Assembly (NCBI GenBank): GCA_021740085.1
Contig: JAIPAL010000001.1
Coordinates: 186,001 to 250,000 of the forward strand
Length of the DNA: 64,000 bases
Direction: 5' to 3'
From: Crocinitomicaceae bacterium
GTDB lineage: Bacteria > Bacteroidota > Bacteroidia > Flavobacteriales_D > Crocinitomicaceae
In this document: piece by piece, positions 4,917 through 60,125 of the stretch
Layout of the letters: every line of letters starts with the position of its first letter
Position numbering within the stretch: position 1 is the stretch's first letter
Position numbers and translations under genes: made by a program
The notes under the pieces: model-generated
Told to the model about the DNA's origin: nothing
Seen by the model: the letters and a program-made list of their open reading frames with translations, nothing else
Database searches by the model: none

Positions 4917-4925
4917 ACTTATACT

Positions 4926-6242: not shown

Positions 6243-6257
6243 TTTTGCTTTTAAATA

Positions 6258-40454: not shown

Positions 40455-41213
40455 ATGCCAACAATCACTGCTGCAATTATTACTTATAATGAAGAACGAA
40501 ATATTCAACGCTGTTTGGATTCGTTGAAAAATTGTGTGGATGATATTTTGGTACTTGACTCCTTTTCAACCGACAACACACTTGCTATTTGCAAAGAAAA
40601 CAATGTTCGTGTTATCCAACATGATTGGATGGGCTATTCAAAATCGAAAAACTACTTAAATACCTTTATTACAAGCGATTTAATTTTTTCCATTGATGCC
40701 GATGAGTCACTCAGTGAGGAACTACAGGCGGAAATAAATAACCTGAGAAGTACGGGAGCGCTAGCTTTTTATGCTGTTAACAGAATAACGAATTATTGTG
40801 GCACGTGGATCAAGCATTCTGGGTGGTTTCCAGATGTCAAAGTGCGGATTAGCCCTCGGGAGAAAACCTTGTGGGACGGGGAAATTGTACACGAAGAGTT
40901 GCTGCTTCCTGAAGGGGAAAAAATTAGTGGTTTAAACGGACTTTTAGCGCATTATTCGTATTATTCTCAGGTGGAACACAGACAAAGAGCCGATCAATAC
41001 TCAAGGCTGACCGCAATAAAATATAGGAAGCAAGGAAAAAAAGCATCTGTTGTTAAACCATACGTCAGTGGGGCAGTTCGTTTTTTGAAAATGTTCCTTT
41101 GGCAAAAGGGATTTTTAGACGGAAAAAGTGGTTGGGTAATTGCGAAGATAAGCGCTCAATCAAATATTTATAAATACAAAGAATTAAGGAGATTAATTAG
41201 TGAAAACAAGTGA
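40455..41213 (+). CDS. Glycosyltransferase family 2 (LPS core type)
   Basis: GT-A fold transferase of 252 residues of the WaaE/KdtX-like group. The N-terminal nucleotide-binding part starts TITAAIITYNEERNIQRCLDSL. Asp residues in VLDSFSTDNT and the metal-binding DAD in FSIDADESL (about residue 77) are as expected. Later segments WFPDVKVRISPR and WDGEIVHEEL match the family. Likely role: adding a sugar to the lipopolysaccharide core. Its 3' end overlaps the next glycosyltransferase by 14 bp. Confidence 0.9.
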   Translation: MPTITAAIITYNEERNIQRCLDSLKNCVDDILVLDSFSTDNTLAICKENNVRVIQHDWMGYSKSKNYLNTFITSDLIFSIDADESLSEELQAEINNLRSTGALAFYAVNRITNYCGTWIKHSGWFPDVKVRISPREKTLWDGEIVHEELLLPEGEKISGLNGLLAHYSYYSQVEHRQRADQYSRLTAIKYRKQGKKASVVKPYVSGAVRFLKMFLWQKGFLDGKSGWVIAKISAQSNIYKYKELRRLISENK

Positions 41214-42204
41214 CATAAAACGAATTATTGTTTCACGAACGGACAGTATCGGAGATGTAATCTTGACCTTGCCATTGTGTGTTTGGATAAAGAAACAATT
41301 CCCAGAAGCAACTTTGGTTTTCTTAGCAAGGAGCTACACGATTCCAGTGGTTTCTTGTTTTCTACCTGTTGATGAAATATTGGATTGGGATCTTCTTTCT
41401 AATTTGCCCTCAGCAGAAAAAAATGAACGGATCAAATCGGATTGTATTATTCATGTCTTTCCTAACTCAGAAATTGCTTCCCTCGCCAAAAAAGCTAAAA
41501 TACCAGTCAGGATAGGCACGTCCCACAGAACATTTCATTTTTTGACTTGTAATTATAAAATAAATTTCAGTCGAAAAAATTCCCTTCTACATGAAGCTCA
41601 GTTAAATTTTGAATTAGCACGCCCTTTAGGTTTAAAAGCCATTCCTTCATTGGAGGAATTGATGGATCAAAGCGCGAATTTCATTGTTCCTGTCAATACC
41701 TTCCCAAGTCCAATAGCTAAAATAGAGCTGAGTCAGGCAATCGTGTTACACCCAAAATCGCAAGGAAGCGCCTTGGAATGGCCCATTGAAAAATACCTTG
41801 AATTAGCAAATGAATGGGTTAAATCCGGAAAAGTGGTGCTAATTACAGGCACAGAGGCGGAAGGCTTACTGATAAGAGAACGTTTTACTTTCTCCTCTCA
41901 ATTAATTGACGTAACAGGACAACTTTCTTTGTCTCAAATGATTTCGCTTTTATCTGAAGTCAAAGTCGCAGTGGCTTGTTCAACCGGACCCATTCATATT
42001 AAATCCATTATTGGAGGAAATTCAATCGCGCTGTTTGCAAGCCGTCGTCCCATTCATCCTGGCCGTTGGCGTCCGCTAGGTTTACATTCAAAGGTCATGG
42101 TCTTTGACGAAAATTGTCCGGGATGTAAAAAAACTAAAAGTTGCCGTTGCCTAGAAAATATTAGCGTTGAAAGTGTCCTAAAAAACCTCCATGAATTTTT
42201 TTAA
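41200..42204 (+). CDS. Glycosyltransferase family 9 (heptosyltransferase-like)
   Basis: GT-B fold transferase of 334 residues in the ADP-heptose:LPS heptosyltransferase family. The start is GTG 41200, inside the end of the GT2 gene. Features are IIVSRTDSIGDVILTLPL at the N-terminus, a C-terminal nucleotide-sugar site with LHPKSQGSALEWPIEKY, and the ACSTGPIHIKS motif. Near the end is a Cys-rich CPGCKKTKSCRC segment. Its last 44 bp are repeated at 46247-46290, with a different stop codon (TAG instead of TAA), marking a recombination scar. Confidence 0.9.
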   Translation: MKTSDIKRIIVSRTDSIGDVILTLPLCVWIKKQFPEATLVFLARSYTIPVVSCFLPVDEILDWDLLSNLPSAEKNERIKSDCIIHVFPNSEIASLAKKAKIPVRIGTSHRTFHFLTCNYKINFSRKNSLLHEAQLNFELARPLGLKAIPSLEELMDQSANFIVPVNTFPSPIAKIELSQAIVLHPKSQGSALEWPIEKYLELANEWVKSGKVVLITGTEAEGLLIRERFTFSSQLIDVTGQLSLSQMISLLSEVKVAVACSTGPIHIKSIIGGNSIALFASRRPIHPGRWRPLGLHSKVMVFDENCPGCKKTKSCRCLENISVESVLKNLHEFF

Positions 42205-42347
42205 AATAGCGCGTTTCTTTCAGAAACACTATTTTTTATTAGCCTTTTCAGCAGGCCTCATTTCTTATACACTTCCTTACTCCAATCAAAAGAAAGGATT
42301 GCTTTGTGTTTTTATTTCCCTAGCCGTTTTGCTGGCTTACAATGCGC
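42161..42347 (+). repeat. Left copy of a 187-bp direct repeat (GT9 end plus UbiA-like start)
   Basis: Aligned without gaps to 46247-46433 with 8 mismatches that I counted by eye. It covers the last 44 bp of the intact GT9 gene and the first ~157 bp of the UbiA-like gene, whose start lies 14 bp inside the GT9 end. Homology stops abruptly at about 42347. Confidence 0.92.
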
Positions 42348-42352
42348 AGTAA
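42191..42352 (+). pseudogene. Truncated 5' copy of the UbiA-like membrane protein gene
   Basis: Encodes 53 residues matching residues 1-52 of the intact protein at 46277 apart from three substitutions (F/S at 4, K/R at 5, F/Y at 9), then ends at a TAA created by the junction (42350-42352). It keeps the 14-bp overlap with the GT9 gene, which suggests this was the ancestral gene order before the insertion. Confidence 0.88.
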
Positions 42353-42485
42353 CTTTAAGTGTTGCTTGGAACTGTTGCTCTGATGGATAATACTCTAATT
42401 CGATAAAGGCAAGGTGATACTCATGCGCTTGGCTCGTTCCAAAAATGGATAGCAGTACGAAGAAGAGTAAGGTCTTTAATTTCAT
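42348..42485 (-). pseudogene. 5' fragment of a DUF6702-like secreted protein gene
   Basis: On the minus strand, ATG at 42485 opens a clear coding sequence: a signal peptide (MKLKTLLFFVLLSIFGTSQA) then HEYHLAFIELEYYPSEQQFQ, resembling the start of the DUF6702 family of Bacteroidota. After ~46 codons it runs into the inverted UbiA-like fragment and soon stops. The 3' two-thirds of the gene is missing. It is divergent from the fragment at 42514. Confidence 0.65.
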
Positions 42486-42500
42486 GGGCTTTAAAATTAC

Positions 42501-42508
42501 TATATTTG
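42501..42508 (+). promoter_or_regulatory. -7 box of the truncated lipoprotein gene
   Basis: TATATTTG fits TAnnTTTG and lies 5 bp before the ATG at 42514. Confidence 0.45.
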
Positions 42509-42513
42509 ACCCA

Positions 42514-42699
42514 ATGTCACAACGATTTTGCTACCTGATTTTATCTTGTCTTTTTCTATGCGCTTCTTGTGTTGAGGAAAAGGTTGACGAGGGGTTAAGA
42601 GCCGGCGATTTGCTTTTTCAGGATTTGGATTGCGGTCCGATGTGTAATGCGATTGAAACAGTAACCGAAGGGGTGAACGGCATGGATTTTTCACTTTAA
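42514..42699 (+). pseudogene. 5' fragment of a YiiX/YebB-like (NlpC/P60-type) lipoprotein gene
   Basis: 61 residues from ATG 42514; an earlier in-frame start at 42445 lies upstream of the promoter box and overlaps the divergent fragment. A lipoprotein signal ends at CASC. The segment LRAGDLLFQDLDCGPMCNAI is the N-terminal signature of YiiX/YebB-like cysteine hydrolases. The frame ends GMDFSL-stop exactly where the family continues with a conserved FSH, so the gene is cut at about 42695 and the catalytic domain is missing. Confidence 0.68.
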
Positions 42700-42769
42700 G
42701 TACGAATTTTAATAATTTATTAATAAATCATACGCGTTTTTTATTTTTCTTTGGGTTAAACTCATTACC

Positions 42770-44317
42770 ATGAAAAAATTCATTCTTGTATTTTCTTTTT
42801 TCTTCGTACTTAACAACGGGATAATTGCTCAATGCCAGCCCCCTTCCTCGGTTGCTTCAAGCCCAAACATGATTTACTATGCGGGAGGTTCTTGCATGTT
42901 CTATGATTCTTTGTGCAATTTGTTGCTTTCCGTTCCTGCAGTAGAGGCTTCCTGGTCTTGTTCTCCAGCAACTGCAAAATGGGTCGTGGTATCCCCATCC
43001 AACGGCGGTTATTATGAATTTCCGAATTATTCCAACAACAACCCACAGATTAATTTTGATCAATACATGCGTCCCTTTTGGAGTGCTGATACCATTTATA
43101 ACGAACTTATTTTCCTAAACGGGGCAGGTACTTCTGCAAAATTAATGTTCACCCCAACGCAAATTTTATCGGTAAAAAACTATAACCAAACGATTACGTA
43201 CACCCAAGGTACGGATTACACCTTGAACGGTAATACGCTTACCCAATTGAATCCGGCCATGTCATCATCGGTTTCTCTGACTGTTGGCAGTGGATTGCAA
43301 AACAAGCAACATACTTCATGGATAAATGTTACATACAAACCTAGTAGAAGCGATTGGTCTATTAGTAATAATTTCACGTATCGAGGGTCGCAGCTTCCCA
43401 AAACCATGGCCAAGTTAAACAGCGGACAACCTGTGAAAATGCAAGCCATTGGCATGTCCATCACCGCCGGATTGAACGTGAGTGGTTTTGCAGGAGATCC
43501 CAACAACTTTACGCCAACGTTCCCTTATATGCACAGCTATATCGACATGCTTGGCCAACGTTTAAATCAAGTATTTCCCGGACCTATTACCATCTACAAC
43601 AGCTCTTGTGGAGGCAAAATGGCGGCATGGGTTGATACGTATTGCCCGGCACTGGTAAATCCGAATAATCCTGATTTAGTATTCATTGATATGGGGATGA
43701 ATGACATTTGGGGAACTAGCGCAGTGGCTTTCAAAAACAGCATTCAATCGGCCATGAATAAAATGAAACAGCATAATCCCAATGTAGAATTTGTGCTTAT
43801 AGGTAATATGCTCCCGGATGTATCAGGTATGGGAGCTCCTGCGAATGGTGCGGTAGATATGTATGGATTTCGAACGCAGTATTTGAATATGGATACCGTA
43901 GGGGTGGTGTTTTTTGATATGACTTCCATTAGCGACAGCATATACGACCGTAAAGGAGCATACCAATGCACGGCAAATTCCCTGCATCCGAACGATTATC
44001 TTGCGCGTTGGTATGCCCAAGGTTTGTTTCAAATGTTCAACAACACTAACGTAAGCGGTATACCTGGCACATTGAACCTGGACGCTGTAACGTGTTTTCC
44101 GAATCCTAGCGAAGGAGTATTGATGGTTGATTTAGGTTTTTCACCAACAGCTCCCGTTGATGTAACGGTATTCGATCTATTGGGACAGGTTGTTTATGAG
44201 GGAAAACAATTCCAGCAAAAGCAGCAATTTGATTTTTCGAGGCTCCCAAAAGGAAATTTTAATATGCAATTAGGTAAATCTTCCAAGAAGCAACAAGTTT
44301 CATTCATAATTAAATAG
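42770..44317 (+). CDS. T9SS-exported SGNH/GDSL hydrolase
   Basis: A 515-residue secreted hydrolase. Signal peptide 1-20. Residues ~25-200 form a beta-rich N-terminal region including an Ig-like or X2-like segment (TQILSVKNYNQTITYTQGTD). The SGNH domain has the complete set: Ser230 in AIGMSITAG, Gly in the NSSCGGKM block, Asn311 in DMGMNDIWG, and the Asp/His block SLHPND with His406. The last ~75 residues are a T9SS sorting domain (CFPNPSEGVLMVDL, LLGQVVYEG, SFIIK). Likely an esterase acting on acetylated glycans. It is 2 bp before the beta-helix gene, so the two form one unit. Confidence 0.87.
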   Translation: MKKFILVFSFFFVLNNGIIAQCQPPSSVASSPNMIYYAGGSCMFYDSLCNLLLSVPAVEASWSCSPATAKWVVVSPSNGGYYEFPNYSNNNPQINFDQYMRPFWSADTIYNELIFLNGAGTSAKLMFTPTQILSVKNYNQTITYTQGTDYTLNGNTLTQLNPAMSSSVSLTVGSGLQNKQHTSWINVTYKPSRSDWSISNNFTYRGSQLPKTMAKLNSGQPVKMQAIGMSITAGLNVSGFAGDPNNFTPTFPYMHSYIDMLGQRLNQVFPGPITIYNSSCGGKMAAWVDTYCPALVNPNNPDLVFIDMGMNDIWGTSAVAFKNSIQSAMNKMKQHNPNVEFVLIGNMLPDVSGMGAPANGAVDMYGFRTQYLNMDTVGVVFFDMTSISDSIYDRKGAYQCTANSLHPNDYLARWYAQGLFQMFNNTNVSGIPGTLNLDAVTCFPNPSEGVLMVDLGFSPTAPVDVTVFDLLGQVVYEGKQFQQKQQFDFSRLPKGNFNMQLGKSSKKQQVSFIIK

Positions 44318-44319
44318 CT

Positions 44320-46221
44320 ATGAAATTATTCACTCCGATTTTGTGTTGCTTGGTGCTTGTAACGGCAAGAGCAACCACCTATTACGTTTCTCCCAGTGGC
44401 TCGAATACCAACGGCCTCTCTCCAGCAACAGCGTGGACAAGTTTAACAAGTGTGAATAATTTTACCTTTAGTGCGGGTGATTCCATATTATTTAAAGGAA
44501 ATACAACGTTCAGTGGCTATTTAGAAATCACGCAACAGGATGCGAATAATTTTAACCTCCCGTTGTATTTCGGAAGTTTCGATCAAGGGGTCGCTACGAT
44601 TCTCACGCCGAATACTCTAAATTGCGGTTTTAAGGCAACCAATGTACAAGGTGTTCGACTTGAAAACCTCATTTTTCAAGGACCGGGCGCGCAAACCGCA
44701 TCGAATAAAGACGGGGTCTTGTTTTATACGAATTTAGCAAGCGGATACCTAAAGAATATTCGATTGAAAAATGTCAATGTCAATGGCTTTGGTTTTTGTG
44801 GGATTCGCTTTTATTCGGAATGGTCTGCCAATGTAAACTCTGGATACAGAAATGTGCTGATCGATAGCTGTATCGTGCACGATTGCCGCGAAAATGGCAT
44901 TGTGAGTATTGCTTATGATGATCAAAATTATACTACCTATCAACATTACGGGTTTCAAATAAAAAAATGCCGTATATATAATATCACTGGATATTCGGCG
45001 AATAGCCACAAAGGAAGCGGAATTGTACTTTCACAAATTGATTCTGTGTTAATCGAGCGTTGTGAGGTCTTCAATAACGGCGCGTTGAATACGGCTTGCG
45101 GTGGACCAGGAGGAATATGGGTGTATGCTGCCAATGGGGTTACCATCCAACATAACGAAAGCCACCATAATAAATCAGGATCAGGGAACGGTTGTGATGG
45201 TCTTGGCTTTGACCTAGACGGAGGAACGACCAATTCATTAGTCCAATATAATTACTCGCATGACAACGACGGTGCGGGGTATTTACTCGGTAATTTCCCT
45301 GGAGCAAGGCCATGGGGAAACAATGTGGTGAGGTATAATTACAGCGTGAACGATGCAAGAACCAACAATAGTCCAGTTACGCTTTTTACAGCACCCGGCA
45401 CCCAATGGAACGGTTTGCGGTTTCATAATAATACGGTGGTTGTGACCAATAGTCCGAATAACAACTATCCTAGTTTTTCGGCCTTTCAAATGACCGATTA
45501 TGGAACACAAATGACGGGTGTAGAGTGTTATAACAATATTTTTTTAACTCAAGGACTGCCGGTGATTGACGTGCCTGCCACCTTTATAAATCAAAATCCG
45601 GCCTTTATTGGTAATTTATATTGGGCCGGAGGAGGTGCTACGACGTTTGTATACGGAAACACCTTCAATTCATTAAGCAGCTTCCGAAGTGCAGGGGTAA
45701 ATTGTGAGCATATTCAAAATGCGAATTACGGGTTCGAAGCAGATCCACTATTGCCCAATATTTTATCTCCGGCACCAACGCTTTATCCTCAAGTGACAGA
45801 GATGCTTTCGTCGTATGCTATTATCAATACCTCTCCAATGATGAATGCAGCGGTTAATATGTCGGCGTTGTTTGGATTCGGTAATGGATCAAAAGATTAT
45901 TATGGAAATATGGTGCCGAACAGCCAAGCTCCCGAAATCGGTGCAGAGGAAGGGTATTTTATCAATGTGGGATTACCGGGCTTGGCCCCAAGTGATGGGA
46001 TTCGTTTGGTGCAGAATCCAGTGGTTTCAACCGTCAGGCTACATGTGGATTCCAAATGGTATGGAAGCGATTATGCGGTTTTAGATGTTTTAGGCAACGT
46101 GGTAGCAAAAGGAATGTTGCAAGGTGAGGATGAAGAAATCGATGTCTCTGAATTTTCAGATGGTATGTATTTTATTGCGGTAAAACGGCATTCTTTTGGT
46201 TTAAAGTTTATTAAGGATTGA
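44320..46221 (+). CDS. T9SS-exported right-handed parallel beta-helix protein
   Basis: A 633-residue secreted protein. A signal peptide (about 1-18) is followed by the pectate-lyase-like opening TYYVSPSGSNTNGLSPATAW and FSAGDSILFKGNTTFSG. Parallel beta-helix coils with GIRFYS, NGIVSI, GIVLSQ and SGSGNGCDGLGFD steps span about 100-400, as in carbohydrate lyases and glycosidases. The C-terminal ~75 residues are a T9SS-like sorting domain (VQNPVVSTVRLHV, LDVLGNVVAKG, DGMYFIAVK). Together with the SGNH esterase it may form a small secreted polysaccharide-degrading pair. Confidence 0.85.
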   Translation: MKLFTPILCCLVLVTARATTYYVSPSGSNTNGLSPATAWTSLTSVNNFTFSAGDSILFKGNTTFSGYLEITQQDANNFNLPLYFGSFDQGVATILTPNTLNCGFKATNVQGVRLENLIFQGPGAQTASNKDGVLFYTNLASGYLKNIRLKNVNVNGFGFCGIRFYSEWSANVNSGYRNVLIDSCIVHDCRENGIVSIAYDDQNYTTYQHYGFQIKKCRIYNITGYSANSHKGSGIVLSQIDSVLIERCEVFNNGALNTACGGPGGIWVYAANGVTIQHNESHHNKSGSGNGCDGLGFDLDGGTTNSLVQYNYSHDNDGAGYLLGNFPGARPWGNNVVRYNYSVNDARTNNSPVTLFTAPGTQWNGLRFHNNTVVVTNSPNNNYPSFSAFQMTDYGTQMTGVECYNNIFLTQGLPVIDVPATFINQNPAFIGNLYWAGGGATTFVYGNTFNSLSSFRSAGVNCEHIQNANYGFEADPLLPNILSPAPTLYPQVTEMLSSYAIINTSPMMNAAVNMSALFGFGNGSKDYYGNMVPNSQAPEIGAEEGYFINVGLPGLAPSDGIRLVQNPVVSTVRLHVDSKWYGSDYAVLDVLGNVVAKGMLQGEDEEIDVSEFSDGMYFIAVKRHSFGLKFIKD

Positions 46222-46246
46222 TATAACCTTCGTATAATGAGTTAGC

Positions 46247-46433
46247 TTAGCGTCGCAAGTGTCCTAAAAAACCTCCATGAATTTTTCTAGAATAGCGCGT
46301 TACTTTCAGAAACACTATTTTTTATTAGCCTTCTCAGCAGGCCTCATTTCTTATACACTTCCTTACTCCAATCAAAAGAAAGGATTGCTTTGTGTTTTTA
46401 TTTCCCTAGCCGTTTTACTGGCTTACAATGCAC
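46247..46433 (+). repeat. Right copy of the 187-bp direct repeat
   Basis: Matches 42161-42347 with 8 differences. It begins with a remnant of the GT9 3' end that keeps the reading frame and ends in TAG (46288-46290), then continues into the intact UbiA-like gene. The altered stop codon and the synonymous and non-synonymous changes show that the two copies have diverged. Confidence 0.92.
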
Positions 46434-47071
46434 ATAAGCTTTTTAAGTGGCTGCGCGAGGAAGGCTCATACGCAGGTCTTCAATCCAAACGTTTTCTTCC
46501 TACACGCATCTTATTTTTTGTGGCAACGCTTGCCTTTTTATGGCTAGGTATTTTACTCGATTTTCGTTGGAATGAATACTTTCTGCTCAGTATCTTATTA
46601 TTACTTTCCCTTTCCTATTCCTTTCTTCGTCCCCAACTCAGCATTAGGAGTATTCCGTATTTAAAGTCTTTTTTTATTGCCTTGTCTTGGACCAGCTTGT
46701 GTTGCGCTTTGCCAATGAGCTATTCGAATAAGGCGATTTACAATGGAAGTTTTTTCTTTATTCTTTTCTATGCGCTTGCGGTTTCGTCCGATTACAGGGA
46801 TTTACGCATTGACCCTATTGAATTAAAAACAATCCCTCAAGTAGTACCCAGAAAAGCCTTGCTTGTACTTATATTTTCATGCTTGCTTGCCTTTGTTGCT
46901 TTCAACCTCTATTTCTTTGGCACCCTATTCTTTATCGCTGCCATACTTTCTTCGTTGGCTTTTCTCTACTATTTATTTCAATATTTTGTCTTGAAAAAGG
47001 AACTTAATACGGATCGAACCTTGCTCGTTTTTGGACTCTCAGCATTCATTTTGCAAGTTTATTTCCGTTAA
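46277..47071 (+). CDS. UbiA-prenyltransferase-like membrane protein
   Basis: A 264-residue protein with about eight or nine hydrophobic helices. Features matching the UbiA superfamily are a central IPYLKSFFIALSWTS segment (127-141) and an Asp-rich loop DYRDLRID (172-179) in the position of the second Asp motif. The first Asp-rich motif is degenerate (AYNAHKLFKW, 49-58, with no NDxxD), so catalytic activity is doubtful. The 5' part is duplicated at 42191. It is probably ancestrally co-translated with the GT9 gene. Confidence 0.65.
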   Translation: MNFSRIARYFQKHYFLLAFSAGLISYTLPYSNQKKGLLCVFISLAVLLAYNAHKLFKWLREEGSYAGLQSKRFLPTRILFFVATLAFLWLGILLDFRWNEYFLLSILLLLSLSYSFLRPQLSIRSIPYLKSFFIALSWTSLCCALPMSYSNKAIYNGSFFFILFYALAVSSDYRDLRIDPIELKTIPQVVPRKALLVLIFSCLLAFVAFNLYFFGTLFFIAAILSSLAFLYYLFQYFVLKKELNTDRTLLVFGLSAFILQVYFR

Positions 47072-47117: not shown

Positions 47118-49895
47118 ATGGAAATTGATTTTCAAGCAATAGATAAAAAGTGGCAGTTGTATTGGTTGGAAAACCACAGCAATAAAGTAGTGGAGGACGC
47201 TAATAAACCGAAGTACTATGTCTTAGATATGTTCCCATATCCTTCGGGTGCGGGACTTCATGTTGGGCATCCTTTAGGATACATTGCTTCCGATATCTAT
47301 GCCAGGTATAAGCGCTTGAAAGGGTTCAATGTGTTGCATCCAATGGGATATGATTCATTTGGATTACCCGCAGAACAATATGCGATTCAAACCGGCCAGC
47401 ATCCTGCGATTACTACCGAACAAAATATTGCCAGATATAGACAGCAACTAGATCGTTTAGGGTTTTCTTACGATTGGACCAGGCAGGTAAAAACATCCTC
47501 GCCTGATTATTACCGCTGGACGCAATGGATTTTTAAACAGTTCTTTAATGCGTATTACAATACCGCTTCTGACAAAGCCTGTCCAATGGAGGAATTAATC
47601 GCAGCGTTTTCAAAGAATGGAAATCAAGGCGTGACTGCTTTCTCGGATTATGACAAGATGTTCACGGCGGAAGAATGGAATCAATATAATGACATTGAAC
47701 AAGAAGAGGTACTGCAATCATATCGCCTGGCTTTTTTATCGGAAACATGGGTGAATTGGTGCCCAAAGCTAGGGACGGTGTTGGCAAATGACGAAATTAT
47801 AAGTGGATTATCCGTCCGTGGAAGTCATCCGGTGGAACAAAAGAAAATGATGCAATGGTCCATGCGAATCAAGGCATATGCAGACCGCCTTCTGTCTGGC
47901 TTAGATGAGCTGGATTGGTCAGATGCGATAAAAGAACAACAACGCAATTGGATCGGTAAATCCGAAGGGGCCACCGTCTTTTTTGATGTAGAGGGACACG
48001 ATGAACTAGCTCTTGAGATTTTTACAACAAGGCCCGACACCTTATTTGGGGTGACTTTTATGGTGCTGGCTCCTGAACATCCTTTTTTAGCACAAATTGT
48101 TACGGAAGAACACCAAGAGGCGGTCAAAAACTATCAGTTAAGCGTTTCCAAAAGAACGGAGCGTGATCGCCAAGCAGATGTTCATCATATTTCAGGTGTT
48201 TTTACGGGTGCATTTGTAATTCACCCCTTCAACAAAACCAGCATTCCTATTTGGACCGCCGACTATGTCTTGTCAACTTATGGGACTGGAGCCGTTATGT
48301 CTGTTCCTTGTGGTGACCAAAGAGATTACAGCTTCGCGAAGCATTTCAATTTACCGATCATCAATGTGTTTCAAGGCATTGATATAGCTGAAGAGGCATA
48401 CGGAGAAAAAGTAGGGATTATTGAGAATTCCAGCTTCTTAGACGGATTAGAAATTAAAGAAGCGATTACCATTGCTTGTCAAAAAATTGAAGAAGCAAAT
48501 CGAGGAAATAGAAAAGTGAATTTTCGACTTCGAGATGCCGTGTTTTCAAGACAACGGTATTGGGGAGAACCTTTCCCGGTCTATTATGAAAATGGCATTC
48601 CAAAAATGATTGCGGACGAAAACCTTCCCATTGAACTTCCGAATGTGGATGCGTATTTACCTACTGAATCCGGAGAACCGCCTTTGGCTCGTTCAAAAAA
48701 GGAAGACTGGAACTTCTTTCAAGGAGATCGGATGGAATACAACACGATGCCTGGTTGGGCAGGGAGTTCGTGGTATTTTCTACGTTATTTAGACCCAGAA
48801 AACAACGACTCTTTTGTTGGGAAAGACAAAGTAGCGTATTGGAAAAACGTGGACTTGTACATTGGAGGCAACGAGCACGCTACGGGACACCTCTTGTATG
48901 CCCGTTTTTGGACTAAATTCCTCTACGATATGGGCTTCATTCCTTTTAATGAGCCATTCAAGAAATTGATTAATCAAGGAATGATTTTGGGGCGAAGTAG
49001 CTTCGTTTATAGAATCAAAGGGGAAAACACCTTCGTTTCTTTGAATAAAAAGAAGGACTACCCCACCGATCAACTTCATGTGGACGTTAACTTGGTGGAC
49101 AATGATAAATTGAATCTCCAGGAGTTCAAAAATTGGTTACCTGAATACAATGATGCCACCTTCATTCTTGAAGATGACGGAACGTATTGCTGCGGTTTTG
49201 AGGTGGAAAAGATGTCAAAATCTAAATTCAATGTGCAAACGCCTGACGCCCTCGTTGAGAAGTTTGGCGCCGACACCCTTAGAATGTACGAAATGTTCTT
49301 GGGTCCATTGGAACAAAGCAAACCGTGGGACACAAAAGGAATTACAGGAGTCCATGGATTTTTGAAAAAAACAACTCGCTTGTTTATGGATGCAACTGGT
49401 TCGTGGAGCACCTTAGCCGAAGATCCAACAAAAGAAATGTGGAAAGTGCTTCACAAAACGATTCGCAAAATACAAGATGAGTTGGATCGCTACTCATTTA
49501 ACACGGTGGTGTCTACTTTAATGATTGCTGTTAATGAATTAACAGAGTTGAAATGTAATCACAAACAAATCCTGCAGCCCTTATTAGTCTTACTCTCTCC
49601 GTATGCCCCGCATACCGCGGAAGAGCTGTGGGAAAAACTAGGCCTTCCATCGGGCGGATGTGCCTTGGCAAGTTTTCCAGTGTACGATGAAGCCATGTTA
49701 ATTGAAGCAAGCTATGAATATCCCATATCTTTTAATGGAAAAATGCGCTTCATCCAATCCATTGACCTGCATCTTCAAGAAAATGAGGTCATAGAACTAA
49801 TCATGGGACTCGAAAACACCCAAAAACACTTAGAAGGAAAAACCCCGAAAAAAGTGATTTTTGTTAAGGGGAAAATTATAAATATTGTGTGCTGA
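47118..49895 (+). CDS. leuS: Leucyl-tRNA synthetase
   Basis: Charges tRNA-Leu with leucine. Class I signatures: the HIGH-type motif HVGH at 48-51 (GAGLHVGHPLGY) and KMSKS at 698-702. The editing domain (CP1) lies in between, with TTRPDTLFGVTFMVLAPEHP and TGAVMSVPCGDQRD, where the Asp discharges mischarged tRNA. At 925 residues it is longer than E. coli LeuRS (860); part of the excess is an insert around residues 157-195. Essential housekeeping gene marking the left edge of the accessory region. Confidence 0.98.
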   Translation: MEIDFQAIDKKWQLYWLENHSNKVVEDANKPKYYVLDMFPYPSGAGLHVGHPLGYIASDIYARYKRLKGFNVLHPMGYDSFGLPAEQYAIQTGQHPAITTEQNIARYRQQLDRLGFSYDWTRQVKTSSPDYYRWTQWIFKQFFNAYYNTASDKACPMEELIAAFSKNGNQGVTAFSDYDKMFTAEEWNQYNDIEQEEVLQSYRLAFLSETWVNWCPKLGTVLANDEIISGLSVRGSHPVEQKKMMQWSMRIKAYADRLLSGLDELDWSDAIKEQQRNWIGKSEGATVFFDVEGHDELALEIFTTRPDTLFGVTFMVLAPEHPFLAQIVTEEHQEAVKNYQLSVSKRTERDRQADVHHISGVFTGAFVIHPFNKTSIPIWTADYVLSTYGTGAVMSVPCGDQRDYSFAKHFNLPIINVFQGIDIAEEAYGEKVGIIENSSFLDGLEIKEAITIACQKIEEANRGNRKVNFRLRDAVFSRQRYWGEPFPVYYENGIPKMIADENLPIELPNVDAYLPTESGEPPLARSKKEDWNFFQGDRMEYNTMPGWAGSSWYFLRYLDPENNDSFVGKDKVAYWKNVDLYIGGNEHATGHLLYARFWTKFLYDMGFIPFNEPFKKLINQGMILGRSSFVYRIKGENTFVSLNKKKDYPTDQLHVDVNLVDNDKLNLQEFKNWLPEYNDATFILEDDGTYCCGFEVEKMSKSKFNVQTPDALVEKFGADTLRMYEMFLGPLEQSKPWDTKGITGVHGFLKKTTRLFMDATGSWSTLAEDPTKEMWKVLHKTIRKIQDELDRYSFNTVVSTLMIAVNELTELKCNHKQILQPLLVLLSPYAPHTAEELWEKLGLPSGGCALASFPVYDEAMLIEASYEYPISFNGKMRFIQSIDLHLQENEVIELIMGLENTQKHLEGKTPKKVIFVKGKIINIVC

Positions 49896-49938
49896 TAAAA
49901 TTGCATCATTCGGCAATGCCCTCTTCGTCCTGGATTAT

Positions 49939-50631
49939 TTATCCATTAAATTTATCATTATTCCAATTAGTTGGGTTGTTTATAATATAAGTTGAAATGT
50001 TGTTGTATTCCGTTTCATTTCGGATGATGTGGTCATGGTAATTGGGTTGAAAAAAATGATTATTTCGATTGTATTTTGGGATTTCCGATTGTTTTTCGTC
50101 CAAAAAATCATCAATTTTTGAATTAACCGCCGATTTGAAACCCGCAATAAATGATGAAATGGATCTTGGCAAACGCACGGGTGGATGGCGTTTTATATCG
50201 CGGAATTGGTGGTCATCCAACCGTAGAGACGCACGGCCGTGCGTCTGTACGGTTGGATCATCAATCGTTCCCCCCCCAACGGTCGTTCCCCCATCAATCG
50301 TTCCCCCAACGGTCGTTCCCCCAACGGGCCATCCACCATCCATCATTTTCCCACGATTTTTGTTTTGAATTTCAACGATGGCGTGTAAATGATTGGGCAT
50401 TAAAATAAATTGGTGTAAAATCAATTCATCACGAATTTCAAATGAACGAAACCATTCCTGGACAACGATTTCGCCAAAATCTGACAATTTCATTTCCGCA
50501 CTTACAATTTCACCCAAATTGCAGGCTCTATTTTGTGTTACGATGGTCAAAAAATAATGCGCATCGGCCGAATAATCCCAATTGGGTTTTCGGTGCGATT
50601 GGATGCGGTATTTATTTTTGTAATTATCCAT
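49939..50631 (-). CDS. REP-associated tyrosine transposase (RAYT) with an in-frame repeat insert
   Basis: Y1/HUH single-strand transposase of the IS200/REP-associated family, 230 residues. The HUH motif is MPNHLHAIVEI (His81, His83). The N-terminal HRKPNWDYSADAHYFLTIVTQNR and C-terminal HDHIIRNETEYNNISTYIINNP segments are standard. Residues ~94-141 are non-family: a Gly-Gly-Thr/Val tract followed by DPTVQTHGRASLRLDD. This stretch is encoded by tandem 15-bp units (50260-50322) and by a REP-like palindrome (50215-50258). The insert sits in a region that is variable in RAYTs, so the enzyme may remain active. Confidence 0.9.
   Translation of the reverse strand: MDNYKNKYRIQSHRKPNWDYSADAHYFLTIVTQNRACNLGEIVSAEMKLSDFGEIVVQEWFRSFEIRDELILHQFILMPNHLHAIVEIQNKNRGKMMDGGWPVGGTTVGGTIDGGTTVGGGTIDDPTVQTHGRASLRLDDHQFRDIKRHPPVRLPRSISSFIAGFKSAVNSKIDDFLDEKQSEIPKYNRNNHFFQPNYHDHIIRNETEYNNISTYIINNPTNWNNDKFNG
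50215..50258. repeat. REP-like palindrome inside the RAYT gene
   Basis: A 44-nt inverted repeat with 21 of 22 positions paired. Arms are ATCCAACCGTA-G-AGACGCACGG and its complement CCGTGCGTCT-G-TACGGTTGGAT; the single mismatch is G50226-G50247. The core (GTAGAGACGCACGG) resembles dispersed REP elements associated with RAYT genes. Confidence 0.85.
50260..50322. repeat. Tandem 15-bp repeats inside the RAYT gene
   Basis: Alternating units ATCAATCGTTCCCCC (50260-50277 with three extra C, and 50293-50307) and AACGGTCGTTCCCCC (50278-50292 and 50308-50322). The unit length is a multiple of three, so the minus-strand gene stays open and gains GGTTVGGTID-type repeats. Confidence 0.85.
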
Positions 50632-50706
50632 TATATAAATTGCTGTGGTAACAAACCCTTTTTTAAGGGGTGAGTTTGGTTTGTGTGTTGGGTGGTACTT
50701 TAAATT

Positions 50707-51099
50707 TTAGTATTTAAACTTGAAAGGAAATTGGCTATTTTTAATTGTTGTTGTTTCTGTGATTATTTCATTCATTAAAATTCTACCACTCCCAAAGAGA
50801 TCAAATAAACAGAACACCAACATAGTTCCAATGGAAAGGATATGGAGTATCCTGTGAATATTAGGGATGAACGCTCCATATTTCTTCTCAAGAAAGAACA
50901 CTTTCTTCTCATAGAAAAGAATGACCACAATTATCAATAGAGCAATAGATGGCTCCAGGATTTGGTAATCTAATTTAAATGCTACGTAACAAAAGGTTAT
51001 AAGAGGGGAAGCAATTAATAAGATCATTATCATCAAACTACTTTGAATTAAAGAAATACGATGAATATGGTTCTTTTCTTCTAACAAGGATGTTTTCAT
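50707..51099 (-). CDS. Small hypothetical membrane protein
   Basis: 130 residues. Three hydrophobic stretches (about 20-42, 48-65 and 84-104) follow a charged N-terminus (MKTSLLEEKNHIHR); the C-terminus is short and polar. No family recognised. It lies upstream of and on the same strand as the RAYT gene, 75 bp apart, with a weak AT-rich hairpin (50655-50671) between them. It could be accessory cargo or simply a lineage-specific gene. Confidence 0.55.
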   Translation of the reverse strand: MKTSLLEEKNHIHRISLIQSSLMIMILLIASPLITFCYVAFKLDYQILEPSIALLIIVVILFYEKKVFFLEKKYGAFIPNIHRILHILSIGTMLVFCLFDLFGSGRILMNEIITETTTIKNSQFPFKFKY

Positions 51100-51388
51100 A
51101 ATTCCATTCTTTAGTTGGTGTATAAATAACTTATTTGTTAAACCTTTATAGGCCTAATTGTTACATCATGAATATTCCGAATTAATATTAGGCATTTTGC
51201 CGGATTAGTTCTTCCTATACCTATTGTTAAATGACTTTTCATGTTTTTGAGGATATAGATGATTGGTTTGAAACATTGGTTATCAGTATATCATTAGGTC
51301 AACAACAATGCATTAAATTAATTTAAGATGTTATGAATAAGCAAATTAGATGAGTATGAGGAAGGGGGCTATGGCAATCTTTGTGTTA
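51100..51388. other. Intergenic region, no gene seen
   Basis: About 290 bp between two divergent genes, very AT-rich. It must hold the promoter of the minus-strand membrane protein gene, but no convincing TAnnTTTG element stands out there. No repeat or RNA structure was noticed. Confidence 0.35.
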
Positions 51389-51396
51389 TATTTTTG
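51389..51396 (+). promoter_or_regulatory. Predicted -7 box for the M48-TPR gene
   Basis: TATTTTTG (TAnnTTTG) lies 22 bp before ATG 51419 and inside the longer frame from 51350, which supports the shorter start. Confidence 0.4.
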
Positions 51397-51418
51397 TATA
51401 TTAGCACAAAAATTTATT

Positions 51419-52576
51419 ATGAGATTAAGTTTATTTTTTATAATCTCCACATTCTATATAAGCGCACAGGGCACTTTTTCATGTGGATACAATCATTCAA
51501 CGGAACCGAGCTTATGTGATTTTGTTGCAAACAAAACATATATCAGTAATCAAATGGTGGTAGATAAAATTAATACAATGGTTAATTCTATTGCATTACC
51601 TCAAAATTTTATTTTAGTAGAGTGTGACAATATAAATAATGCCTTTGCATATGTAAAAAATGGAACGAGATACATTATAATTGATGATCAATGGATTAGA
51701 TCAATAGAAGGTAATAATTGGTTTATTACAGGAATATTAGCTCATGAAATCGGACATCATCTTTGTGGTCATACAATAAGTAATGGCTATGTAAGTTTAG
51801 AAGACAAACGAAAAAGAGAGTTAGAAGCTGATAAGTTTGCGGGATTTATTTTGAAAGCAATAGGAGCTACCCAAGACCAATCTCTAATAGCAATTAATTC
51901 GATAGTTCCAGTTGATTTTGACGATTCCCGAAGTACCCATCCAACAAAATCAAAACGAATTGAAGCGATTAAACAAGGATATAATAATTCCAATAGTGAA
52001 TTAAAAACTAATACCATTTCTCAGTTGTCAAGCGCAAAAACAGCCGAAAGCTATTTTAACGACGCCATAGCTATTGTTAAAGAGCCATCATATGAAGTAA
52101 ACCAACAAACTCTTGAAAGATCAATAGTGCCATGTAAAAAGGCTCTTGAACTAAATTCAAATTTTTTTGACGCCTATTTTCATTTGGCATGTATTTATCA
52201 AGCACTTGGAACCAAATTAACTCAGAATAGGAAATATTATTATAATTTGGCATTTGAAAATTATAGTAAAGCATTTAGAATAGATGCAAGTTCCTCTGGT
52301 GTTTATAATAATGCTGGTATGTTATATGCGCAATATGGCTATGATTACAGCGATTATAATTCTTATCAAAATGCAATAAATTGTTATAACTCATCAATCA
52401 GATTGGAACCTGAGAGCGGTGCTGCATATTTGAACAGGGGAATTGCATTCTTAAATATTGGTTATCAATTTAGACAACCAACTTTACCATCAGCATGTAA
52501 TGATTTTTATAAATCATGTTCATTAGGAGAGTCACGTGGATGCGATCAATATAACCGTGCTTGTGGGAGACGATAG
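51419..52576 (+). CDS. Secreted M48-like metallopeptidase with TPR-like C-terminus
   Basis: The start is set at ATG 51419, where a clean signal peptide begins (MRLSLFFIISTFYISAQG); a frame opening at 51350 adds residues before the promoter box. The peptidase domain has the zinc motif HEIGHH in LAHEIGHHLCGHT, with the third ligand in ELEADKFAGF. The SRSTHPTKSKRIEAIKQGY segment is typical of M48 enzymes. The rest (from about residue 200) is helical with TPR-like repeats (ALELNSNFFDAYFHLACIYQALG, YNNAGMLYAQYG, AAYLNRGIAFLNIGY). Likely a periplasmic protease. It faces the trypsin-like protease gene convergently. Confidence 0.82.
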   Translation: MRLSLFFIISTFYISAQGTFSCGYNHSTEPSLCDFVANKTYISNQMVVDKINTMVNSIALPQNFILVECDNINNAFAYVKNGTRYIIIDDQWIRSIEGNNWFITGILAHEIGHHLCGHTISNGYVSLEDKRKRELEADKFAGFILKAIGATQDQSLIAINSIVPVDFDDSRSTHPTKSKRIEAIKQGYNNSNSELKTNTISQLSSAKTAESYFNDAIAIVKEPSYEVNQQTLERSIVPCKKALELNSNFFDAYFHLACIYQALGTKLTQNRKYYYNLAFENYSKAFRIDASSSGVYNNAGMLYAQYGYDYSDYNSYQNAINCYNSSIRLEPESGAAYLNRGIAFLNIGYQFRQPTLPSACNDFYKSCSLGESRGCDQYNRACGRR

Positions 52577-52715
52577 TTTTTTCTAATCAAATCACCACCA
52601 TGACATTGTTCAACCTTTCCCACCTCCTATACTTCCCCCTTGTTTTGTAAAAATACCCTAAACGATTCTCTATATCCGATGGAGTTTTTTGTGCTTGCTT
52701 TGCGGTGATAGTTGG

Positions 52716-53705
52716 TTAAAGAGACCGAACAGCCCGAACAGAGTAAGTATTGATGTACCCAGCTTGTATCATTGCTCCACCCTTGAAGAAAGCCTTACCC
52801 CACGCGCCGCCGTTACCGACCTTTGTAGAACTCCAATACCAGCCAGAAGCAAAACCCACAATTTTGTCCCTGTTTAAATACATATTAGTTTGTTCTTCTT
52901 TAGTTGGTAATCTCCAACCATTTCCTAAAGCAGCACAAGCTTTATTTGCGTCAGGCCAATTCATAAGTGATGGAAAATCATTCTGTGCAACCTCAAGATT
53001 TCCTATTCTAATAGGTTTGCCTATTATTGAGGATGAATTTGGCACATCTTTAGGTTTTTTCGAAGGAATTAAATTCGACAATGCCATTGGTGTATTTTTT
53101 TTATAATCTAAAAGTATTTGAAGATAGGATTTTGGTATTGCGAAGTTTAAATTTTGGCCATCTGTTAGTTGTGAGACAGAAATCCCAAGTAATTCGCCAT
53201 TTGAATTTAAAACAGGTCCACCACTACTACCTGGCGATATGGAGGCTGTCATTTGGAGTAATTTAATTCCTTCAAAATCTCTCATTCCACTAATAATTCC
53301 ATCGGAAATTGTTGCTGGAAGGCCTCGAGGACTTCCAATCACATAAACTTTTTGCCCAATTGAAGCCGTGGTCACTGCCAATTTTATTACTGGTTTGTTA
53401 AGTGTTGAGACTTTAAGCAATATTAAATCAACAGTTTTATCAATACCTACATACCCATCAATTTTATACTCCTTATCGGAATTATTTAAATAACAACTTG
53501 CATTCGTAGCTCCCTCCATAACATGATAATTTGTTGCAATAATATTTGGAGCAACAAAAAATCCTGAGCCTTGAGATCCATCATCTGTTATGATGGTAAC
53601 AGTTGAGTTAACAGTGTTTTTATAAATTAGAGAAGCATCTTGCGAAAACAACTGGTTAAATGGGCTTAAAGCACAAATTAAACTTAAAAGTATTATAGTT
53701 CTCAT
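52716..53705 (-). CDS. Secreted trypsin-like serine protease with C-terminal DUF1566 domain
   Basis: 329 residues. A signal peptide ends near residue 21 (LFSQ). The S1C protease domain has the full triad: His61 in ATNYHVMEG, Asp93 in KTVDLILLK, and Ser161 in SPGSSGGPV. There is no PDZ domain. Instead, after a Lys/Pro-rich linker, residues ~245-329 form a DUF1566-like (Lcl C-terminal) module with WPDANKACAALGNGWRLPT and SSGWYWSST-type motifs, a C-lectin-like fold found in surface proteins. A DegP-type catalytic domain with a lectin-like tail may recognise a surface ligand. Downstream of hsdR on the same strand. Confidence 0.85.
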   Translation of the reverse strand: MRTIILLSLICALSPFNQLFSQDASLIYKNTVNSTVTIITDDGSQGSGFFVAPNIIATNYHVMEGATNASCYLNNSDKEYKIDGYVGIDKTVDLILLKVSTLNKPVIKLAVTTASIGQKVYVIGSPRGLPATISDGIISGMRDFEGIKLLQMTASISPGSSGGPVLNSNGELLGISVSQLTDGQNLNFAIPKSYLQILLDYKKNTPMALSNLIPSKKPKDVPNSSSIIGKPIRIGNLEVAQNDFPSLMNWPDANKACAALGNGWRLPTKEEQTNMYLNRDKIVGFASGWYWSSTKVGNGGAWGKAFFKGGAMIQAGYINTYSVRAVRSL

Positions 53706-53715
53706 ATTCTCATGT

Positions 53716-53858
53716 TTATTTATAAATTACTGTCCGTATTCCTGCACTGATATCCAATAACCAACCAAAAAGCATTTCTTTTTCTTCTTCTGATGTCGTT
53801 CTAAATTGATTAGAATCCGCGCAGTGACTTATAAGGTGGTTAATAGTGTTTTATTCAT
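53716..53858 (-). pseudogene. Possible small or frameshifted gene downstream of hsdR
   Basis: On the minus strand a coding-looking frame runs LISHCADSNQFRTTSEEEKEMLFGWLLDISAGIRTVIYK (split here: 5' half up to RTTSE, 3' half EEKEMLFGWLLDIS and on) to a TAA at 53716-53718. The ATG at 53858 is in another frame (MNKTLLTTL-stop), so either a frameshift separates start and body, or the true start is a rare codon. Family unknown. Confidence 0.3.
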
Positions 53859-53872
53859 TTTTAAATTAGAAT

Positions 53873-56296
53873 TTAAGCTACTTCATACAAATACTTCTGG
53901 AACTCAATAAAAAGTTTTCGAATGTCTCCTCCATCGCCGAGAATCTCTTTTGCATCCTCCAACGATTGATATTTGTTTCTGAGTAGGATTGGTAATTTTT
54001 CTATGTCAAGTTCATCAACGCCAGATTCAACGTATTTACTTAATACAAATGCGATGAATTCCTTTTGTTTGTCGTCTAATATGGCAAAGATTGTTGCTTG
54101 TGCTGCTGCTACTCGTTCTTCTCTGGTTAGTGAGCTGTAATTGCCATTAAACACATATTCCAATACATCAAACAAATCACTTTTTTCCATATTAACTAAT
54201 GATTGAACGATCAACAAATCACTTTTAGGAAATCCTGCAGCATCTAATTTTTCTAACAATATTTTTCTTGTATTTGGTTTGCTCCATTGTTTTCTTAATT
54301 CTGCTTCGTTTTTGAAAAGATTTGGCAATTCGCCAAATAGATTATTCAAAAATTGCTCTGCTGAAATTGGTTTTCCATCAGCTAAAAATGAAGTCGAAAT
54401 CATTGATTGTATTTCTCGTTCTTTACCATCACGCAATTTTATTTTAACCTTCTTTTTCTTACTGCAGTTACAGAATAATTCACCGCAAATATCGCACGGT
54501 TCTTTACCTGGTTTCTCACATTCACAAGGCCTTTGATTGCAAATTTCACACGGTTGTTTTGGTTGTTTTGGTTTATCTGGTTCTGGTTCTAATGGTTCGC
54601 CATCCCACTCTGGGTCTGCAAAATGATGGTAGGCATCTACAAAATCATAAATCGTAAAAAACTCTTTACCATCAAACAAACGTGTGCCTCGCCCTACAAT
54701 TTGCTTAAACTCTATCATAGAATTTACTGGTCGCATTAAAACAATATTGCGAATGTTTCTTGCATCTACACCCGTTGATAATTTTTGCGAAGTAGTTAAT
54801 ATAGTTGGAATCGTTTTTTCGTTGTCTTGAAACTCTCTCAAAAACTGTTCGCCTATTTCGCCATCGTTGGCGGTAACACGCACACAATAATTTGGGTTGG
54901 TGCTTGTTTTGAATTGATTGATCAAATCACGCACTGCGGCCGCGTGGTCTTGGGTAGCACAAAAAATAATAGCTTTTTCTTTCTGATTGGCTTCGTCCAT
55001 GTAAATTTGAACTCTTTTTGCCTCTCTTGCCTTTATTTCTATAATTCGATTAAAATCAGCTTCTTTATAAGTTCTGCCTTCTTCAATTTCGCCTTCCATG
55101 ACTTGGTCATCGCTGGTAAAGATATATTCATCCAACGTAGTTTGAATACGCTTTACTTTAAAAGGAGTCAGGAAACCATCGTTAATGCCTTCTTTCAACG
55201 AATAAATATAAACCGGATCGCCAAAGTATTTGTAGGTGTCTACGTTATCTACTCGTTTCGGAGTAGCTGTCAAACCCAACTGAACTGCTGGCGAAAAATA
55301 ATTCAAAATACCTCTCCAATTTCCTTCATCGTTTGCACCACCGCGGTGACACTCATCTATAATGATAAAATCAAAATAGTCGGTTGGATATTGTCCGAAG
55401 TTGTATAGTTCACTACCATATTCAATAAGAGATTCGGCTGCCAAAGAAATGGGTTGCGATGTTTCTGTCTTCTTTGAAACTTTAGCATTGGTCATAAAGG
55501 TTTGGAAAATGGTAAAGAAGATACTTCCGTTAGTAGGAACACTTCCTTTTTTACTTATTTCCTTCGGACTAATTCTTACCAAAGCATCTTCTGGAAAGGC
55601 AGAAAAAGAGTTAAAAGCTTGGTTTGCCAATATGTTTCTATCGGCTAAAAATAATATTCTTGGTCTGCGACTGCCATCGCGCTTTAAGTTCCAACGTGTT
55701 TCAAATAATTTCCAAGCAATTTGAAAAGCAATGGCCGTTTTTCCAGTACCAGTAGCAAGGGTTAATAAAATACGTTGTTTGCCTTGCGCTATGGCTTCAA
55801 CGGTTCTTTGAACAGCAATTTCTTGGTAGTATCGTAATTGCCAAGTGCCACTTTTATTTTCAAAGGGAACATTGGTAAACTTTTCTCTCCAATGATTTTG
55901 GTCAGAAAAAGTTTTATTCCACAATTCCTCTGGGGTAAGGTAATTATCGACCAATCCTTCTGTGCCCGTAAGCATACAAATGCTGTAAATCTCGTTTCCG
56001 TTGGTACTATATGCAGTTTCAAGTTTTAATTTCTCTGCATAAATTTTTGCTTGCGCAACTCCTTCTCCAACCGCTAGATTAATGCTTTTGGCTTCAATCA
56101 CAGCTAGTTTAACACCTTTATAAACCAAGATGTAATCAGCAATCATTGGTGTTGCACGACGACCACCAGTTTGAATTTTACCGTCGGTAATCTTTGCATG
56201 TTGCTCACGAAGGATTTTTGAACCTTCAACAACGCCCCAACCGCAAGCCTTTAGCTTTGGGTCAATAAGGTTTGCCCTTGTATCTGCTTCGTTCAT
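53873..56296 (-). CDS. hsdR: Type I restriction enzyme, R subunit
   Basis: Translocating restriction subunit of 807 residues, similar to the EcoEI-type (type IB) group. The N-terminal PD-(D/E)XK nuclease has Asp54, Glu68 and Lys70 (LAVIEAKS). The SF2 helicase motor has Walker A ATGTGKT (181-187) and DECH box (314-317), with motif VI near QIVGRGTRLF. Around residues 580-615 lies a Cys-rich stretch with paired CxxC/CxC motifs (PCEICNQRPCECE, PCDICGELFCNC), probably zinc-binding. A C-terminal helical domain binds the M/S core. It starts 1 bp after the accessory nuclease gene. Confidence 0.96.
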   Translation of the reverse strand: MNEADTRANLIDPKLKACGWGVVEGSKILREQHAKITDGKIQTGGRRATPMIADYILVYKGVKLAVIEAKSINLAVGEGVAQAKIYAEKLKLETAYSTNGNEIYSICMLTGTEGLVDNYLTPEELWNKTFSDQNHWREKFTNVPFENKSGTWQLRYYQEIAVQRTVEAIAQGKQRILLTLATGTGKTAIAFQIAWKLFETRWNLKRDGSRRPRILFLADRNILANQAFNSFSAFPEDALVRISPKEISKKGSVPTNGSIFFTIFQTFMTNAKVSKKTETSQPISLAAESLIEYGSELYNFGQYPTDYFDFIIIDECHRGGANDEGNWRGILNYFSPAVQLGLTATPKRVDNVDTYKYFGDPVYIYSLKEGINDGFLTPFKVKRIQTTLDEYIFTSDDQVMEGEIEEGRTYKEADFNRIIEIKAREAKRVQIYMDEANQKEKAIIFCATQDHAAAVRDLINQFKTSTNPNYCVRVTANDGEIGEQFLREFQDNEKTIPTILTTSQKLSTGVDARNIRNIVLMRPVNSMIEFKQIVGRGTRLFDGKEFFTIYDFVDAYHHFADPEWDGEPLEPEPDKPKQPKQPCEICNQRPCECEKPGKEPCDICGELFCNCSKKKKVKIKLRDGKEREIQSMISTSFLADGKPISAEQFLNNLFGELPNLFKNEAELRKQWSKPNTRKILLEKLDAAGFPKSDLLIVQSLVNMEKSDLFDVLEYVFNGNYSSLTREERVAAAQATIFAILDDKQKEFIAFVLSKYVESGVDELDIEKLPILLRNKYQSLEDAKEILGDGGDIRKLFIEFQKYLYEVA

Positions 56297-56297
56297 A

Positions 56298-59829: not shown

Positions 59830-59842
59830 TTATTTTTTTTGT

Positions 59843-59850
59843 TAAAGTTA
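59843..59850 (-). promoter_or_regulatory. Possible -7 box for the hsd operon
   Basis: TAACTTTA on the minus strand, 13 bp before the hsdM ATG; a TTTG lies 14 bp further upstream, a shorter spacing than usual. Confidence 0.35.
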
Positions 59851-60125
59851 GAATTTTATTAGAACAAAGCCTTATTCCATTCCCGCTCTCAAACCTCTCC
59901 ACCAGCCCAAAATCATAATCCTATTTGTTCTTTAATCAATTACCCGCAAATTAGAACAATAAGATTAACCCCACCAAGCGCTTGACCTGAGTTGTCAAAC
60001 TATTTTTTGAGTAGAGTTCGGTTGACAGCACTTTTTGAAGGTCAAAGCACTTCCTTCTAATTTATCTTGGCGGTATTATCTCGCAACGGAGAAGTGTCTT
60101 TAAACACACTCAAAAAAATAAAGAC
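59851..60125. other. Intergenic region between hsdM and engB
   Basis: About 275 bp separating divergent units. I see no gene, tRNA, repeat or attachment-site-like duplication here; it marks the right edge of the accessory region. Confidence 0.4.

Follow-up and report, generated by a model that had tools for sequence, protein, structure and literature searches.

Insertion of congener DNA into overlapping GT9 and UbiA-like genes of a Crocinitomicaceae bacterium, probably by an illegitimate event with a long target duplication

Results

Two copies of a gene junction

The window, by which we mean the whole analysed stretch of 64,000 nucleotides, lies on contig C85, which is 313,980 bp long and belongs to a MAG of 2.41 Mb in 101 contigs that is 87.6% complete (genome G000). 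The comparisons were based on MAG assemblies, one genome per species, and the closest relative is G006 (~92% nucleotide identity). The window carries a whole GT9 (heptosyltransferase-like) gene (41200..42204, plus strand; Pfam PF01075, E=1.9e-17; 91.6% amino acid identity to G006), which runs into a truncated UbiA-like gene of 53 codons (42191..42352, plus strand) whose stop codon comes from donor DNA. Further downstream, a C-terminal remnant of GT9, a 13-codon tail with its own TAG at 46288-46290 (46252..46290, plus strand), overlaps the whole gene of a UbiA-like membrane protein (46277..47071, plus strand; PF01040, E=1.9e-4, a value below the cut-off; 78% amino acid identity to G006).

The left (42161..42347) and right (46247..46433) copies of this junction, both on the plus strand, are direct repeats of 187 bp with 8 mismatches and a spacing of 4086 bp. 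A repeat search of the window recovered them as 196 bp at 94% with the same spacing of 4086, and blastn as 203 bp at 93.6% (E ~1e-86). An earlier sequence-only reading had described this repeat, with a full GT9 and a cut UbiA-like gene on the left and a GT9 remnant ending in TAG and a full UbiA-like gene on the right; the repeat search bore out its size and spacing, and the reading frames agree with its account of the genes. The mismatch at 42346 falls in donor-derived sequence, so the true host differences between the copies number seven.

The inserted DNA

Nucleotide alignments to the donor loci showed that the donor-derived DNA extends in full from 42346 to 46246 (plus strand). Two truncated, divergent genes, missed by the earlier reading, make up its first 350 bp. 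One is a 5' fragment of a donor DUF6702 gene (42346..42485, minus strand; 95.5% nucleotide identity to G001 over 42342-42697), the full G001 version of which matches PF20420 (E=5.2e-20). The other is a YiiX-like (Peptidase_C92) donor gene (42445..42699, plus strand; the full donor gene matches PF05708, E=8.7e-23) that has lost 450 bp, or 150 codons, in frame. This loss is bounded by two GATTTTTCAC repeats, and the 10-bp direct repeat GATTTTTCAC lies in the alignment at the deletion joint (42685..42694).

Two intact genes follow on the plus strand. The first encodes a GDSL/SGNH hydrolase with a T9SS type A sorting domain (42770..44317; PF13472, E=1.1e-10; PF18962, E=9.1e-9; 99-100% amino acid identity in G001 and G100). 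The second encodes a repeat protein that appears to be beta-helix-like (44320..46221; 99% amino acid identity in G001, G100 and G048), with a T9SS sorting domain (PF18962, E=1.2e-6) that scores above the Pfam cut-off and below that of NCBIfam. The claim that the enclosed DNA codes for two intact T9SS-exported proteins is thus upheld by two intact open reading frames with sorting domains, their export being putative; the description of the pair as polysaccharide-degrading gained no support and stays putative only. A PDB sequence search with both exported proteins gave no match, and a single-sequence AlphaFold model of 44320-46218 (mean pLDDT 41) was too poor for fold searches. About 100 T9SS sorting domains were counted in this 87.6% complete, 2.4-Mb assembly, which would amount to a large outlay on exported proteins.

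No integrase, transposase or replication gene was present among the open reading frames of the insert (42350-46246), no inverted repeats were found at the insert, and searches of plasmid and phage collections with the insert gave no match.

The empty site and the donor locus

In G006 the GT9 gene (L027 7669-8673) and the UbiA-like gene (6888-7682) overlap by 14 bp, with no insert between them. Positions 7510-13559 of L027 align to window positions 42361-36314 and positions 4066-7712 to 49893-46247, so that both window repeats fall on one and the same stretch of G006. In at least five further congeners (L028-L031 and L008) the UbiA-like gene directly follows GT9. The single-copy empty site of G006 and this adjacency in the congeners show that the window gained DNA; insertion had been the earlier proposal, and the direct overlap of GT9 with the UbiA-like gene, for which relatives were to be checked, is exactly what G006 displays. 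A separate 10-kb stretch of the window (49894-60093), with a type I restriction-modification cluster and a REP-type transposase-like open reading frame, is also missing from G006, between leuS and engB, and no flanking duplication was seen around it.

The gene pair of the window is 99.3% identical in nucleotides to that of G001, 99.2% to that of G100 and ~98% to that of G048; the named relatives with the same pair are Cryomorphaceae/Flavobacteriales MAGs. In these three genomes the source locus has the order M1-DUF6702-YiiX-[pair]-MTase, with whole DUF6702 and YiiX genes and a TylF-like methyltransferase (MTase), and in six congeners YiiX is directly followed by MTase without the pair. No full-length YiiX of the donor type was found in the genome of the window; apart from the fragment, it has just one remote paralogue, on C79. 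The near identity of the pair, the whole donor genes in the congeners and the lack of a full-length YiiX of its own show that the insert was laterally acquired from a congener near G001 and G100, and the proposal that it is DNA from a diverged relative accordingly holds (99.2-99.3% nucleotide identity of the donor block to G001/G100).

Comparison of the three source loci (L083-L085) showed that the pair block is mostly 97-100% identical among them, with an 85-94% patch within the GDSL gene of G048, that its flanks are 60-90% identical, and that identity shifts sharply at the block edges. By this pattern, recombination at the YiiX locus has recently spread the pair block between species of the genus.

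The two joints

At the left joint (42342..42345) the alignment places four bases, ATGC, common to the host UbiA-like gene and the donor DUF6702 gene (ATGCRCA with one mismatch; host TTACAATGCACATAAGC, donor AAATCATGCGCAGTAAC, window TTACAATGCGCAGTAAC). At the right joint (46242..46259) donor TTAGC is followed by host TTAGCGTCGCAAG, a run of 13 bp common to donor G100 and the host, and TTAGC stands twice in the window as a 5-bp stutter (donor GAGTTAGCGTCGCAAGAAA, host as in G006 ATATTAGCGTCGCAAGTGT, window GAGTTAGCTTAGCGTCGCAAGTGT). The chance of a 13-bp common run at a fixed point is ~5e-7, and that of the 4-bp left joint is ~0.025, which taken alone is near chance level. Alignment of the donor sequence past each joint gave no extended similarity to the host. 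Both joints are illegitimate, formed at microhomology between host and donor DNA, and the host sequence restarts ~185-190 bp upstream of the point at which it was left.

Divergence of the two copies

Identity between the two repeat copies is 96%, and they differ by 14-16% from G006. Both derive from the host lineage, given this mutual identity and the only ~52% and ~31% amino acid identity of the GT9 and UbiA proteins of G001 to those of the window. Polarisation of the differences with G006 left five that could be decided: the left copy has the derived state at four of them, the right copy at one. In the left copy the changes at 42201 (TTC to TTT) and 42204 (TAG to TAA) are silent in GT9, and in the cut UbiA fragment the same two changes give S to F and R to K. 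A changed stop codon and two amino acid replacements of this kind, silent in the gene in use and missense only in the dead fragment, are what would be expected under relaxed selection after a duplication. The earlier reading had taken the stop codon and the amino acid changes as evidence for a junction copy from a diverged relative; they match relaxed selection instead, and both copies are host-lineage sequence. At 42168-42170, by contrast, Ala is replaced by Glu in GT9 itself, a gene still used.

Two clocks were applied to the seven differences. The donor block, with 5 window-specific neutral changes in ~890 neutral sites (an estimated count), predicts ~2 copy differences in ~190 bp against the 7 observed (P=0.006; conditional P=0.038). 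The pseudogene fragment, with 5 changes in 348 sites, agrees with the observed count (P=0.45). Later recombination could have renewed the donor block, which makes its clock uncertain. Part of the divergence of the copies fits relaxed selection, and some of it could predate the insertion.

Similar insertions in the genome and genus

A direct-repeat scan, which by design selects for repeats, covered 927 kb of the same genome and returned two more insertions with target duplication, each corresponding to a single copy in G006. The second insertion (C85:153914-155114, with repeat copies at 153914-154039/154991-155114; L140:13914-15114) has a duplication of about 125-137 bp (single copy in G006 at C26:11607-11743); it lies in a divergent promoter, with an ECF sigma factor on one side and a divergent gene on the other, and its cargo is a protein of 229 aa that has a signal peptide and belongs to no known family. 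The third (C74:29750-30554, with repeat copies at 29750-29804/30500-30554; L176:9750-10554) has a 55-bp duplication (single copy in G006 at C84:3959-4013); it is bordered by the end of an ABC-F-like gene and by PhoD, and its cargo is a lipoprotein of 174 aa. At both sites each copy is nearest to G006 on the side that serves its own intact gene.

In G071, G041 and G094 (L086, L087 and L090) a homologous GDSL/beta-helix pair (~62% amino acid identity) separates patatin from VOC, and a duplication of 59-70 bp from the end of the patatin gene surrounds it; patatin and VOC are adjacent without the pair in 26 of the 30 loci examined. With two more cases in the same genome and the patatin/VOC case in three congeners, the process is seen to recur. 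No flanking duplication was found at the YiiX/MTase and VOC/pair sites of the same gene pair, so target duplication is not universal.

Several repeats from the scan were rejected as insertion duplications: those at C85:17396/19330/28232 and C79:7277/9792 are intergenic repeat elements, that at C85:297954/298516 is a tandem gene duplication, and that at C33:4218/4815 lies within a single open reading frame. Further repeats on C9, C68, C75, C23, C14 and C28 were left out of the case count. The elements on C79 (7277-7430 and 9792-9947; L171) are two 155-bp intergenic repeats at 87% identity with ends that resemble inverted TACCACAA/TTGTGGTA, and are possibly a MITE-like element. Those on C85 (17396-17604, 19305-19540 and 28207-28327) are three intergenic copies with a GGGATTACGC...GCGTGATCCC hairpin, near small lipoprotein-like genes.

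Discussion

We consider the structure of this locus to be probably the product of an illegitimate insertion with a long target duplication, most likely by template switching of the MMBIR kind, followed by drift of the two copies. A piece of a congener's chromosome, from within DUF6702 through YiiX, the GDSL gene and the beta-helix-like gene to just beyond it, would have entered the lineage and been joined illegitimately into the overlapping GT9 and UbiA-like genes. The likeliest route would be template switching onto the incoming DNA in replication or repair, with a switch into donor DNA at the four bases ATGC within UbiA and a return to the host at the 13-bp match with its 5-bp stutter, which lies ~185-190 bp upstream within the tail of GT9. 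In MMBIR, return behind the point of collapse gives a duplication (Hastings et al. 2009, PMC2621351). A return point behind the departure point would here put the GT9/UbiA junction on both sides of the insert and leave both host genes whole. Extra switches within this one event may also account for the 5-bp stutter and for the 10-bp joint at the YiiX deletion. Given the 14-bp overlap of GT9 and UbiA, a plain insertion would break one of the two genes and only a junction-duplicating insertion would spare both; selection would retain such products, and the gene pair itself may be useful to its new host. The useless half of each copy would later have drifted, and other strains may have contributed by some exchange. 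No match to Ku was found in this 87.6% complete MAG, which removes one alternative, end joining, and nothing more; no ComEC homologue was found in the same assembly.

The insertion might instead have arisen in another strain and arrived by homologous or homology-facilitated recombination; one repeat copy, or a part of it, would then be the allele of a different strain, and each copy would be a strain hybrid rather than a product of drift. The excess of the seven copy differences over the donor-block prediction speaks for such exchange, as do the left copy at C85:154 kb, which matches G006 for ~70 bp and then strongly diverges, the two patatin copies of G094, which resemble alleles of different species, and the movement of the donor block between species with abrupt changes of identity at its edges. 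However, exchange between strains leaves the first formation of the two illegitimate joints unexplained, and the location of four of the five polarised differences on one copy is in line with relaxed selection, so that we regard this course of events as rather unlikely. Far less probable is the Campbell-like integration proposed from the sequence alone, in which a circle carrying the insert and a diverged GT9/UbiA junction entered by a single crossover within the 187-bp repeat. The shape of the product, direct repeats around an insert, is right for it, but a donor species whose GT9 and UbiA proteins are so distant could not provide a copy with 96% identity, both illegitimate joints would already have to exist on the circle, and the insert has neither an integrase, transposase or replication gene nor a counterpart in plasmid and phage collections. 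The joints, moreover, consist of host/donor microhomology, which a Campbell crossover does not make, and this part of the earlier reading is not sustained. The junction copy could possibly have come from a donor within the host's own species, and in a weaker form of that proposal one flank may later have been swapped with the allele of another strain.

An assembly chimera, in which contigs of two species were fused, appears to us the least probable source of the structure. A MAG of 101 contigs and the presence of G001-like species in similar waters lend it some plausibility, but the 4 and 13 bp common to the two sides of the joints are less than assembly overlaps usually need, the eight differences between the copies form a biologically sensible pattern, a deletion and private substitutions set the donor part apart, and two further such sites lie elsewhere in the assembly.

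Insertion with long target duplication, to which template switching would give rise here, was reportedly described in Helicobacter pylori by Nobusato et al. in 2000 (Gene 259:99). Other reports describe such insertions in H. pylori, which comparison of related genomes brings to light and which lie within long direct duplications of the target with no evident transposase, as often accompanied by restriction-modification genes (PMC1643837, PMC3154945, PMC2749054). The present insert belongs to this class by its structure: the gained DNA is absent from the close relative G006, where the target is intact, the target is duplicated as direct repeats of 187-190 bp at 96%, and neither a transposase reading frame nor inverted repeats are present at the insert. 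Cargo and taxon differ, since the frequent, non-obligatory link to restriction-modification genes is replaced by GDSL and beta-helix-like T9SS proteins (the type I cluster ~10 kb away is a separate insertion), and here the host is a member of the Bacteroidota, and it is known which locus the DNA came from and where the two joints lie. Like MMBIR products (Hastings et al. 2009, PMC2621351), the insert has microhomology at its joints (4 bp left, 13 bp right, 10 bp internal), several discontinuities and a duplication on return behind the departure point; MMBIR was put forward mainly for human copy number changes, whereas here the second template would be DNA arriving from another species. Homology-facilitated illegitimate recombination (PMC3240628, PMC5361080) likewise adds foreign DNA with an illegitimate joint but requires one homologous donor end, and neither end is homologous to the target in this case. 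Campbell integration also leaves an insert flanked by direct target repeats, but no circle, integrase or segment of common homology was seen in the donor, and the joints are illegitimate.

Gene gain in bacteria is mostly ascribed to phages, plasmids, transposons or flanking homology. The locus described here appears to be a recent cross-species gain of two genes, resolved to the base, by a freshwater bacterium from another species of its genus without any of these, at two overlapping genes where only a junction-duplicating insertion would be tolerable. With a known donor, an empty site, defined joints and two more cases in ~0.93 Mb, a cheap genome-wide test becomes possible, in which accessory genes are screened for a gene junction repeated directly on both sides. 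We tentatively suggest that, in this freshwater Flavobacteriales genus, illegitimate insertion with long target duplication may regularly bring genes for exported proteins from other species into tight operons, filtered by selection for whole flanking genes.
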